From contig DYEY01000036.1 of assembly GCA_020725465.1 (NCBI GenBank), positions 1-64,000 on the forward strand: DNA of 64,000 nucleotides, in the 5' to 3' direction. This document shows, in pieces, positions 19,963 through 31,649 of this stretch (within the stretch, counting starts at the first letter, position 1; every line of letters starts with the position of its first letter). The translations under genes were made by a program, and so were the position numbers. The notes below the pieces were generated by a model. That model was given only the letters and a program-made list of their open reading frames with translations, was not told the DNA's origin and ran no database searches. Origin of the DNA: Dethiobacter sp. (GTDB lineage: Bacteria > Bacillota > Dethiobacteria > Dethiobacterales > Dethiobacteraceae).

Positions 19963-20070
19963 CTCTTATCCAGAGAGGTGGAGGGACTGGCCCGATGAAA
20001 CCCGGCAACCGGACGCGCGTCAACGGTGCCAATTCCAGCAGGGTGGTAACTCCATCCTGGTAGATAAGAG
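19963..20070 (+). promoter_or_regulatory. SAM-I riboswitch aptamer (S-box)
   Basis: P1 is CTCTTATC (19963-19970) paired with GATAAGAG (20063-20070). Inside are the hallmark S-box elements: AGAGGTGGAGGGACTGGCCC (19972-19991), GATGAAACCCGGCAACC (19994-20010), GGTGCCAATTCCAGCAGG and the late P4 region. High S-adenosylmethionine would stabilise P1 and free the downstream terminator, lowering expression of metK, the enzyme that makes this metabolite. Confidence 0.95.
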
Positions 20071-28991: not shown

Positions 28992-29633
28992 TTGGCTGAT
29001 GCTCCCAAAGAGATCAGGCTGGAGGACTGCGAAAGTCTTATCAGACAAATTCGCGATGTCATCTCTGTCAATATCGTCCCCGGAGAAAGCAGGCAAATAG
29101 AAGAAATCCATGTCCTGGCCGACGACGTGCGCAGTGCCAAACAGATAGTGCGGGACATTGAGACTCTTTTCCGCGTGGAGTACGGGCTGGACCTGGACCA
29201 CAAAAAAGTTTCGGTGGTGCAGCTTAAGAAAGAACAAAAGCTGCCCCAGGAAAAGCGCCTGAAATTCTCCTCCATCCAGGTTGCGCTGCAGGGGAACCGG
29301 ATGGAAGCGGTGGTGGAGCTGGCTTCAGCCAAAAAAAGCTGCCAGGGCAAACTCAGCGGAGCCGGCTCGCGGGCCAACCGCCTGCGCCTGGTGGCGGAGG
29401 CTACCTTGCAGGCGGCGGGCGGCTTCCTTGACAATGGCACCTGCCTCCTCCTGGAAGAAGTAAACCTGTTTACCCTTGGCAGCAGGCAGGTGGTCTGCGT
29501 GGCTCTCACTTATATCAAAGGGTCGCAGGAGGAATCACTGGTCGGCATCGCCCTGGTCAGGCAGGACGAAAAAGAGGCGGTGGTAAGGGCGGTGCTTTCC
29601 GCGCTTAACCGCAGGGTAACCACCGATATCTGA
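28992..29633 (+). CDS. Conserved two-domain protein of unknown function
   Basis: I do not recognise a named family. The 213-residue product begins with an alpha/beta domain (residues 1-80: IRQIRDVISVNIVPGESRQIEEIHVLADD, then QIVRDIETLFRVEYGLDLDHKKVSVVQL). The second alpha/beta domain (about 90-213) contains alternating hydrophobic strands, ANRLRLVAEATLQAAG and VRAVLSALNRR. No signal peptide or membrane segment is present. GGAGGG (28979-28984) is 7 bases before TTG 28992. It precedes the inverted-repeat element and the HD-GYP gene. The first domain resembles small regulatory alpha/beta folds, but that is only an impression. Confidence 0.6.
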   Translation: MADAPKEIRLEDCESLIRQIRDVISVNIVPGESRQIEEIHVLADDVRSAKQIVRDIETLFRVEYGLDLDHKKVSVVQLKKEQKLPQEKRLKFSSIQVALQGNRMEAVVELASAKKSCQGKLSGAGSRANRLRLVAEATLQAAGGFLDNGTCLLLEEVNLFTLGSRQVVCVALTYIKGSQEESLVGIALVRQDEKEAVVRAVLSALNRRVTTDI

Positions 29634-29638
29634 CAGCA

Positions 29639-29831
29639 AAAAAGGACCGACAATTTTGTCCCCAGCGGAGCGGTTATCCCGCCGCCAAATAGCGGAGACG
29701 GCGGAGAAAACCGTAGAGGGGGATAACTTAAATGGCGAAGCTCATCCGTGTATTGCTGGCGCTGAGCGCTCTGCTCCTTGCCGGTGGCGCCGATTTCAGG
29801 TGGTAATTTTAAATAATTGTCGGTCCTTTTT
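29639..29831 (+). repeat. Element bounded by perfect 17-bp inverted repeats
   Basis: The left end AAAAAGGACCGACAATT (29639-29655) is the exact reverse complement of the right end AATTGTCGGTCCTTTTT (29815-29831). Between them are a hairpin-forming segment (GTTATCCC 29673-29680 with GGGATAAC 29720-29727; CCGCCG 29679-29684 with CGGCGG 29699-29704) and a 24-codon hydrophobic ORF (29732-29806). As RNA, the two ends would close a long-range stem ending in a U run, like a terminator with a 159-base loop. As DNA it could be a miniature mobile element. Confidence 0.75.
29732..29806 (+). CDS. Tiny hydrophobic peptide, 24 residues
   Basis: The ORF reads MAKLIRVLLALSALLLAGG and ends in a charged/aromatic ADFRW. 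It has a basic N-terminus and one hydrophobic helix long enough to enter a membrane. A purine-rich GAGGGGG (29716-29722) is about 9 bases before the ATG, and this site lies in one arm of a predicted stem with 29673-29680. It sits inside the 17-bp inverted repeats. It may be a type I toxin-like peptide, a leader peptide controlling the HD-GYP gene, or a chance ORF. No known family is recognised. Confidence 0.4.
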   Translation: MAKLIRVLLALSALLLAGGADFRW

Positions 29832-29850
29832 ATAAAGCGGAGGCGGACTC

Positions 29851-31104
29851 ATGTCTTTCCGAGACGAAAACAGGGGAACGCAAATATTTATTGTTTTGGT
29901 GGTTTTGGCCGCCTTTATTTTTCTGTTCCTGAATATGCCCGGCCGGGAAGTCCTGGGCTGGCCGCTCCTTTTCTTTATTGTTTTGAATATCATCATAGAC
30001 AACCTGGCCGTGCCCATGCCGCGGGGTCAGACCAGCGTTTCCGTGGCCTTTGCCATCAGCCTGGCTCTGATTATGCTGATGGGCCCGGCGGCGGCGGCTT
30101 GGGCAAAGATGAGTGCAATTATACATATCAGAGACTTTAAACACTATAAATCGAGACTTCACCGGCTTGTATTTAATGCCGCCCAGCTGACGCTAGCCGC
30201 CGGGGTAGCGGGCTACGTCTATCTTTGGGCTGGTGGCACCCTGGGCCAGGTGCGCCTGCCGGGAGATTTAATCCCGATTGCATTTAGCGTTTTAACTTAT
30301 TTTTTAATAAATTCCACACTTATTATGATAGTAATGTGCCTATCTCAAAAATTATCGATTTTTGGCGTCTGGCTTACCAACTTCCGTTGGGCTGCTGCTA
30401 ACTACCTGGCGGTGGCTCCCCTTGGCATCCTCATCGCCGTGGTTTATGTCAACATGGGGATACCCGGTGTGCTGCTGCTCATCATCCCCCTGATGCTGGC
30501 GCGGCACACCTTCATCATGTACATGGACATGCGCAACCAGTACCTCAGCACCATCAGGGCCCTGACCAAGGCCATCGATGCCAAGGACCACTACACCCAC
30601 GGCCATTCCGAGCGGGTGGCGCGCTATGTGGTCCTGATTGCACAGGAGATGAAGCTGCCCGAGGATTTTGTGGAGAAGCTGGAATACCTGGCGCTGATGC
30701 ACGACATCGGGAAAATAGGCATCCCGGAGAACATCCTGAACAAGCCGACCCGGCTTTCCGACGAGGAGTTTGATATTATCCGGAGCCACGCCGCGGTGGG
30801 CGCGGACATTATCAGCAACATCAAGTTCATAGGCGAGTATGCCGATATAGTGCGCCATCACCACGAGCGCATCGACGGCCGGGGCTACCCGGACGGACTG
30901 CAAGGGGACGAGATGTCCCTGGGAGCCAAAATAGTGGGAGTGGCTGACGCCTTTGACGCCATGACCTCGGAGCGGGTGTACCGTACACCCATGAGCAAGC
31001 AGGACGCCGTGGACGAACTGCAGCGCTGTGCCGACCTGCAGTTCTGTGGCAGGGTGGTCAGCGCTTTTGTCAGGGTTTTGCGGCGGAAGGGAGAGATAGC
31101 ATAA
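29851..31104 (+). CDS. Membrane-bound HD-GYP domain phosphohydrolase
   Basis: The HD-GYP domain generally hydrolyses cyclic dinucleotides such as c-di-GMP. The 417-residue product has an N-terminal membrane region of about six or seven hydrophobic segments (to residue 225), then the HD-GYP domain (about 232-400) with HGHSERVARY, HDIGKIGIPENIL, HHHERIDGRGYPDGL and DAFDAMTSERVYR. All metal ligands and the GYP motif are intact. GGAGGCGG precedes ATG 29851, just after the inverted-repeat element. It is coupled to the next gene by a TAATG overlap. The PilZ protein at 3578 could respond to the same messenger. Confidence 0.9.
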   Translation: MSFRDENRGTQIFIVLVVLAAFIFLFLNMPGREVLGWPLLFFIVLNIIIDNLAVPMPRGQTSVSVAFAISLALIMLMGPAAAAWAKMSAIIHIRDFKHYKSRLHRLVFNAAQLTLAAGVAGYVYLWAGGTLGQVRLPGDLIPIAFSVLTYFLINSTLIMIVMCLSQKLSIFGVWLTNFRWAAANYLAVAPLGILIAVVYVNMGIPGVLLLIIPLMLARHTFIMYMDMRNQYLSTIRALTKAIDAKDHYTHGHSERVARYVVLIAQEMKLPEDFVEKLEYLALMHDIGKIGIPENILNKPTRLSDEEFDIIRSHAAVGADIISNIKFIGEYADIVRHHHERIDGRGYPDGLQGDEMSLGAKIVGVADAFDAMTSERVYRTPMSKQDAVDELQRCADLQFCGRVVSAFVRVLRRKGEIA

Positions 31105-31649
31105 TGATTGTGACCGGAATTGTCCTGGCGGCGGCGGTGGGGTTACTGCGCGGCGGCAGCCTGAAGAGGCTTGAAGAGTTGGGCCTGAAGGCCTTTCCCC
31201 TGGTCTGGGCGGCCATCATCCTCAGGGTTGCCGCGGGCGCCCTTTCCCAGCGGGGGGTGGCCCCCGCTTCCTGGTTGCAGGTTGCCGCTTATGTGCTGTT
31301 AATTTATATGGTGCTGGCCAACCACCGGCAGCCGGGCATGAAAACCTTCGGTTTCGGCAGCTTCCTCAATTTCCTGGTGATAACGGCCAACGGCGGGAAA
31401 ATGCCTGTTTCGGCCGCTGCCATTGCCCGGGCTGGCTTGTCGGCGCAACCGTCCGGCACTCACACCCTGCTGGCTGAAGGGACCCTGCTCCCGTTTCTGG
31501 CGGACATTATACCGGTGCCTTTATACCTGCCCCTGCGCAGTGTTGTCAGCATCGGCGACATTTTTATCGTCCTTGGTATCTTTGCTTTTATCCAGTATCG
31601 CATGCTCGCTCCGGCCAAGCCGGCGGCACTTGTACCGGAAAAAGATTAG
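31104..31649 (+). CDS. DUF5317 membrane protein
   Basis: This 181-residue protein has about five hydrophobic segments and the DUF5317 features: LLRGGSLKRLEEL near the N-terminus and FLVITANGGKMPVSAAAIARAG (residues about 90-111). Its function is unknown. In other Firmicutes such proteins also occur next to HD-GYP genes. The ATG overlaps the HD-GYP stop as TAATG, so the two are translated together, which suggests a functional pair. A terminator hairpin follows at 31696. Confidence 0.8.
   Translation: MIVTGIVLAAAVGLLRGGSLKRLEELGLKAFPLVWAAIILRVAAGALSQRGVAPASWLQVAAYVLLIYMVLANHRQPGMKTFGFGSFLNFLVITANGGKMPVSAAAIARAGLSAQPSGTHTLLAEGTLLPFLADIIPVPLYLPLRSVVSIGDIFIVLGIFAFIQYRMLAPAKPAALVPEKD

Follow-up and report, generated by a model that had tools for sequence, protein, structure and literature searches.

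Results

Organization of the locus

The window, which is the whole stretch of 64,000 nucleotides of Dethiobacter sp. DNA analyzed here, contains a compact RNA element located between two genes (Table 1). The gene 5′ of the element encodes a protein that we call UP, whose stop codon is 5 nt from the start of the element. The gene 3′ of it encodes a MASE9-HD-GYP protein, predicted to consist of a membrane sensor domain and a c-di-GMP phosphodiesterase. Directly 3′ of the HD-GYP gene, a DUF5317 membrane protein is encoded at 31104-31649.

The two ends of the element form an outer stem, P0, and are complementary at 17 of 17 positions. P0 encloses an open reading frame of 24 codons (the micro-ORF) with a GGGGG ribosome binding site (SD) upstream. 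Both features had been described in an earlier note made from the sequence of the window, and both are present. The fold of the whole element has an energy of -83 kcal/mol, compared with a mean of -65.0 for shuffled sequences (z -3.5), and 0 of 200 shuffles folded as well.

Table 1. Positions of the genes and RNA features at the locus in the window.
Feature	Position	Strand	Remarks
UP gene	28992..29633	+	TTG start; 213 aa
P0 outer stem, 5′ arm	29639..29655	+	pairing kept, sequence changed across families
P1 anti-SD strand, TTGTCCCC	29656..29663	+	pairs with 29719-29726 (MFE fold)
AGCGNAGCG motif, local form AGCGGAGCG	29664..29672	+	28/39 representatives
Core hairpins P2 and P3	29670..29714	+	RNAalifold, pair counts
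P2 strands, GCGGT / ACCGT	29670-29674 / 29710-29714		
P3 strands	29678-29684 / 29699-29706		
Second AGCGGA motif, P3 apical loop	29691..29696	+	invariant in first 18 relatives
SD of the micro-ORF, GGGGG, masked	29718..29722	+	
Micro-ORF, 24 codons, MAKLIRVLLALSALLLAGGADFRW, TAA stop	29732..29806	+	in-frame conservation; peptide profile match E 4e-11
P0 outer stem, 3′ arm, TTTTT at end	29815..29831	+	8 nt 3′ of micro-ORF stop
MASE9-HD-GYP gene	29851..31104	+	Pfam MASE9 7.5e-12, HD_5 5.6e-38

The earlier note placed the SD in a stem with GTTATCCC. Indeed, GTTATCCC and GGGATAAC (29673-29680/29720-29727) form a perfect 8-bp pair. In the MFE fold the SD pairs with TTGTCCCC at 29656-29663, as TTGTCCCC/GGGGATAA, and the inner hairpin is kept. 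GTTATCCC is an alternative partner of equal length in this sequence and is not kept in relatives. What relatives keep is a CCCC-GGGG pairing together with the inner hairpins, the CCCC run at 29660-29663 being the conserved anti-SD strand. The CCCC/GGGG pairing also covaries.

In the window, Rfam gave nothing over the gathering threshold at the element and nothing meaningful at E<=10. The same comparison of 19 divergent loci gave no match at E<=1. These results agree with the earlier statement that no known RNA class fits. Phage records contained no match. No paper on this leader was found in the open-licence literature, as far as titles and abstracts of the closest matches tell. Elsewhere in the window, a SAM riboswitch (RF00162, 92.6 bits) is located at 19963-20070.

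Distribution and synteny

The element is conserved across many Bacillota families and is not a product of chance. The host belongs to the class Dethiobacteria; the earlier note had looked to the Peptococcaceae, which is off. When 60 relatives were searched at the nucleotide level, matches to the element at E<0.001 came from 16 of the 19 genomes in the same family and from two further genomes, G022 and G057 (loci L002-L018). All of these copies sit between the same two genes, a layout shared by G022 and G057.

A CM of the core (R1) was used for searching the class and the phylum. It matched 32 of 98 class genomes, once in each, and 30 of 399 phylum genomes. UP is present in all 32 CM-positive class genomes. 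Another 14 class genomes carry UP with no CM match; the sequence downstream of UP is readable in 12 of them, and all 12 carry the element and the same kind of peptide. Among the 51 CM loci and the 12 class loci missed by the CM, the order is UP, element and HD-GYP wherever it can be read. UP adjoins every complete copy of the element. The location directly upstream of an HD-GYP gene, pointed out earlier for the window, is the same in all readable relatives.

UP was found in 161 of the 399 Bacillota genomes, often in multiple copies. We read 40 UP loci from many families. Twenty are followed by a MASE9-HD-GYP gene, 18 by other genes and two are cut by contig ends. The element lies in between at 20/20 of the loci followed by HD-GYP, and at 0/18 of the sampled Bacillota UP loci that have other genes next to them. 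These 18 loci rule out that the element is tied to UP rather than to HD-GYP. The module was found only where an HD-GYP gene follows UP.

A profile of the peptide gave 87 matches at E<=1e-3 in the 399 Bacillota genomes, with about 22% of the genomes carrying the peptide. For 76 of the matches, a listed UP match lies no more than 500 nt upstream. Six of the remaining 11 lie between a UP homologue and an HD-GYP gene, one is at a contig start with HD-GYP next, and the one in G309 was seen with both UP and HD-GYP. The matches in G247, G218 and G432 are outside the loci read; that in G432 falls within a frame of 406 aa and is probably due to chance. About a fifth of the sampled Bacillota genomes, belonging to dozens of families, contain the module, for which Rfam has no entry. 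The systematic search covered Bacillota, where many of the genomes are probably MAGs, and some family representatives and ORF starts were set by script or by eye.

Structure of the RNA

P0 closes an RNA of about 160-255 nt end to end. Its arms change completely between lineages, with pairing retained. They are AAAAAGGACCGACAATT/AATTGTCGGTCCTTTTT in the window, TGAAGCCGGCAGC/GCTGCCGGCTTCA in f3, GGGGGGGC/GCCCCCCC in f25, TAGGGGTCGTAT/GTACGACCCCTA in f54 and TAAAATGCCGGCTA/TAGCCGGCATTTTA in f104. In a permutation test, own arms were compared with swapped arms over the whole flanking regions, using one representative per family. Own pairings reached 568 for 17 representatives, compared with a best of 475 in 20,000 permutations, and 1257 for 39 representatives, compared with a best of 972 (0/20,000). 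In f12, P0 is either lacking or doubtful; it is uncertain in f43, f56, f60 and f18b.

Between the micro-ORF stop codon and the 3′ arm of P0 there are typically about 10 nt, and 33 of the 39 representatives fall in the range of 0-18 nt. The length of the 5′ spacer varies between about 0 and 71 nt. P0 is followed by a U-run in the window, in f1, f4 and f85, in some f25 loci and in a few others. It is missing in f3, f45, f54 and most other families, so P0 was rejected as a universal intrinsic terminator.

Across 51 loci, 94.1% of cells in the core structure are paired, and 12 of 17 pairs have changed on both sides. Covariation is 0.466, compared with 0.196 when shuffled and at most 0.121 when slid, figures that lean toward the model because the alignment was fitted to it. 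P1 carries extensions with new sequence in distant families, including GGAAAAACC/GGTTTTTCC in f54, GAATATAGC/GCTATATTC in f59 and f104, and TTTTATAGCC/GGCTATAAAA in f96. In f11 and f12, a direct GCGGT..ACCGC hairpin is found in place of P2 and P3.

The permutation test of the SD stem gave 0/20,000, with a margin smaller than that of P0 (742 compared with 702). The predicted accessibility of the SD, a mean of 0.27 unpaired, is hardly lower than the 0.31 of the HD-GYP SD that served as a control, and the claim that the SD is masked is consequently based on covariation and not on energy.

Predicted unpaired parts of the RNA contain the motif AGCGNAGCG, which is AGCG-N-AGCG with N being G, A or U. 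One or two copies are found in 28 of the 39 representatives, compared with 0.31 expected. The related AGCG(G/A/U)A has a mean of 2.1 copies per element, compared with 0.25 expected. The AGCG motifs persist while the surrounding helices are rebuilt, suggesting that they are recognized by a trans factor or make a tertiary contact.

Leaders bound by TRAP or CsrA likewise have repeats, GAG/UAG- or GGA-like, close to an SD that is masked, and both proteins were considered, TRAP for the GAG/UAG-like and CsrA for the GGA repeats of the element. Unlike what is expected for such leaders, TRAP (mtrB) is absent from 98/98 class genomes, in a search that found mtrB in B. subtilis as a control. The presence of CsrA is unrelated to that of the element, and five genomes (G020, G025, G029, G030 and G033) carry UP and the element without CsrA. 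Both candidates were rejected.

The micropeptide

In f1, pairwise differences in the micro-ORF are 0.228, 0.058 and 0.555 at the three codon positions. Amino-acid identity is 78% in frame 0, compared with 44% and 40% in the other forward frames. The values in f3 are similar. These substitution patterns indicate that the micro-ORF is under protein-level selection. It starts with ATG or GTG and stops with TAA or TAG, or with TGA in a few lineages.

The peptide has 19-30 residues and a charge of +1 to +4. Its start is basic, a hydrophobic stretch comes next, and the end is a conserved tail, LAGGA-x-(aromatic)-(K/R/T)-(W, sometimes L/M/I). The AGGA and the aromatic/basic tail after it are nearly constant, and in the hydrophobic stretch it is the composition that is kept. 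No significant match to the peptide was found in Pfam, NCBIfam or PHROGs. It was detected in 87/399 genomes, compared with 30/399 for the core CM, the search methods being different. This wider detection suggests that its sequence matters.

Peptides in f25 (L071, L075, L079, L082 and L087) are shorter and less hydrophobic, for example VKKVMRIVARLLSGGSNFMW, and the outer stem in this family is made of pure G/C runs. The short length and the lack of a long hydrophobic stretch in these peptides argue against a simple pore-forming toxin.

Discussion

A probable leader for a membrane HD-GYP gene

The element probably belongs to an RNA-micropeptide family that is so far undescribed and that provides the leader for a membrane HD-GYP gene, with gated translation, the peptide or both controlling the phosphodiesterase. 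The earlier note had listed a regulatory RNA among its readings, and the element is probably one, with a coding micro-ORF, a masked SD and a link to the HD-GYP gene. It had also named conservation of the stems or of the peptide as support for a function. The outer stem, the core hairpin and the peptide are all kept across many families.

We infer the steps that would follow from a masked SD. In the default state, the SD would be masked and the micro-ORF untranslated. A signal, or a protein acting on the AGCG motifs, might open the SD stem. Ribosomes could then translate as far as the stop codon, which typically lies some 10 nt upstream of the 3′ arm of P0, and a ribosome terminating or paused there would mask this arm and hold P0 open. 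Where the 3′ arm continues into a U-run, as it does in the window and some lineages, P0 could terminate transcription if the micro-ORF is untranslated, and an open P0 would prevent termination ahead of the HD-GYP gene. Because only some families have a U-run after P0, attenuation of transcription cannot be how the module works in general. In view of the lineages that lack it, the general output may be translational, RNA processing or the peptide itself. The conserved hydrophobic peptide may set the behavior of the ribosome in cis, or it may reach the membrane and act on the MASE9-HD-GYP enzyme there. We regard these two routes as about equally probable.

Leader-peptide attenuators, such as those of the trp, TnaC, erm and SecM types, have a short ORF before a gene and a stem that a ribosome can mask. 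Like them, the element has an ORF of about 24 codons just before a gene, a stem beside the stop codon and, in most cases, a C-terminal Trp, and its leader ORF is selected at the peptide level. Unlike them, it masks the SD of the leader ORF itself, and the arms of its closing stem are about 150 nt apart rather than forming alternative adjacent hairpins. It also has no run of regulatory codons, the Trp is replaced by L, M or I in several families, and the U-run is found in only some.

We propose more tentatively that the closed RNA domain with its AGCGNAGCG signals gates translation of a conserved micropeptide, and that this peptide targets the c-di-GMP phosphodiesterase encoded next to it, either by partnering the enzyme in the membrane or as a ligand of four to seven residues, W included, that is released. 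Ribosome or peptide output would then be coupled to c-di-GMP turnover across Bacillota, and the peptide may serve the MASE9 sensor domain as a new ligand or subunit. One conserved locus links a structured RNA, a peptide of 19-30 residues and a predicted c-di-GMP phosphodiesterase, and so opens a concrete way to test how c-di-GMP is set in these bacteria.

Alternative explanations

A rather unlikely alternative is that the micro-ORF is a stand-alone gene. The RNA would be its tightly controlled mRNA, and the peptide would be a membrane partner or a secreted ligand of the MASE9 sensor, the latter as 4-7 residues released by signal peptidase. The basic start, the hydrophobic stretch and the small-residue AGGA site suggest such a role. 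The peptide is also the most widely detected part of the module, its hydrophobic composition and its AGGA with the aromatic/basic tail are conserved, and it is paired with a membrane HD-GYP protein. However, f25 peptides have no long hydrophobic stretch. A stand-alone gene also leaves unexplained why the stop codon stays close to P0 and why P0 encloses the ORF.

The AGCGNAGCG-containing core could alternatively be the aptamer of a ligand-binding riboswitch, with the micro-ORF as a secondary read-out. The motifs are strongly conserved in predicted unpaired regions, and the gene downstream concerns c-di-GMP. As a structured leader before a c-di-GMP gene, the element resembles the GEMM-I and GEMM-II riboswitches. 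Unlike them, it encodes a conserved peptide, and its divergent loci match no Rfam aptamer. The core architecture differs between families, as in the hairpin of f11 and f12, and the motif copy number varies. We therefore consider a riboswitch improbable.

Type I toxin mRNAs, such as those of the AapA1, Hok and TxpA types, encode a short hydrophobic peptide and have end-to-end pairing and a masked SD. The element has the same layout, and hydropathy, length and the covarying SD stem fit a small membrane peptide with a masked SD, f25 excepted. In this case, the end-to-end fold, the masked SD and an antisense RNA would together keep a toxic membrane peptide silent. An AapA-family toxin mRNA with metastable structures is the subject of one study (PMC6733600). 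The element differs from these mRNAs in being a single syntenic copy strictly linked to an HD-GYP gene, in one place and over many families. It also differs in its conserved AGCG motifs and in the C-terminal GGAx(aromatic)(K/R)W, and no antisense RNA was found or predicted. A weak test for sigma-70 promoter-like sites at 29450-29900 gave none on the two strands, and Pfam, NCBIfam and PHROGs returned no significant match to the peptide. The toxin-like RNA raised in the earlier note is not favored given the single syntenic copy, the link to a c-di-GMP phosphodiesterase and the f25 peptides, and in its classical form it is very unlikely.

The perfect terminal inverted repeats and the U-run in the window might suggest a miniature mobile element, also raised earlier, or an ordinary terminator with a chance ORF, but both are refuted by a single copy in the genome of origin with no dispersed copies, one CM match per positive class genome, fixed and vertical synteny, outer arms that differ between lineages and an ORF under selection.

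The UP protein

UP, an uncharacterized but conserved protein, has no Pfam match. Its AF2 model has a mean pLDDT of 88.9, and its C-terminal half is similar to the allosteric domain of LeuA (Foldseek E 1e-6, TM only 0.41). The match is only partial and yields no function. The genes found after the 18 UP loci without HD-GYP include secA and spoVS, which were recognized by eye. At four f56 loci (L205, L206, L209 and L210), the upstream UP homologue looks rearranged, with two partial UP-profile matches inside one long frame, and the micropeptide module is intact.
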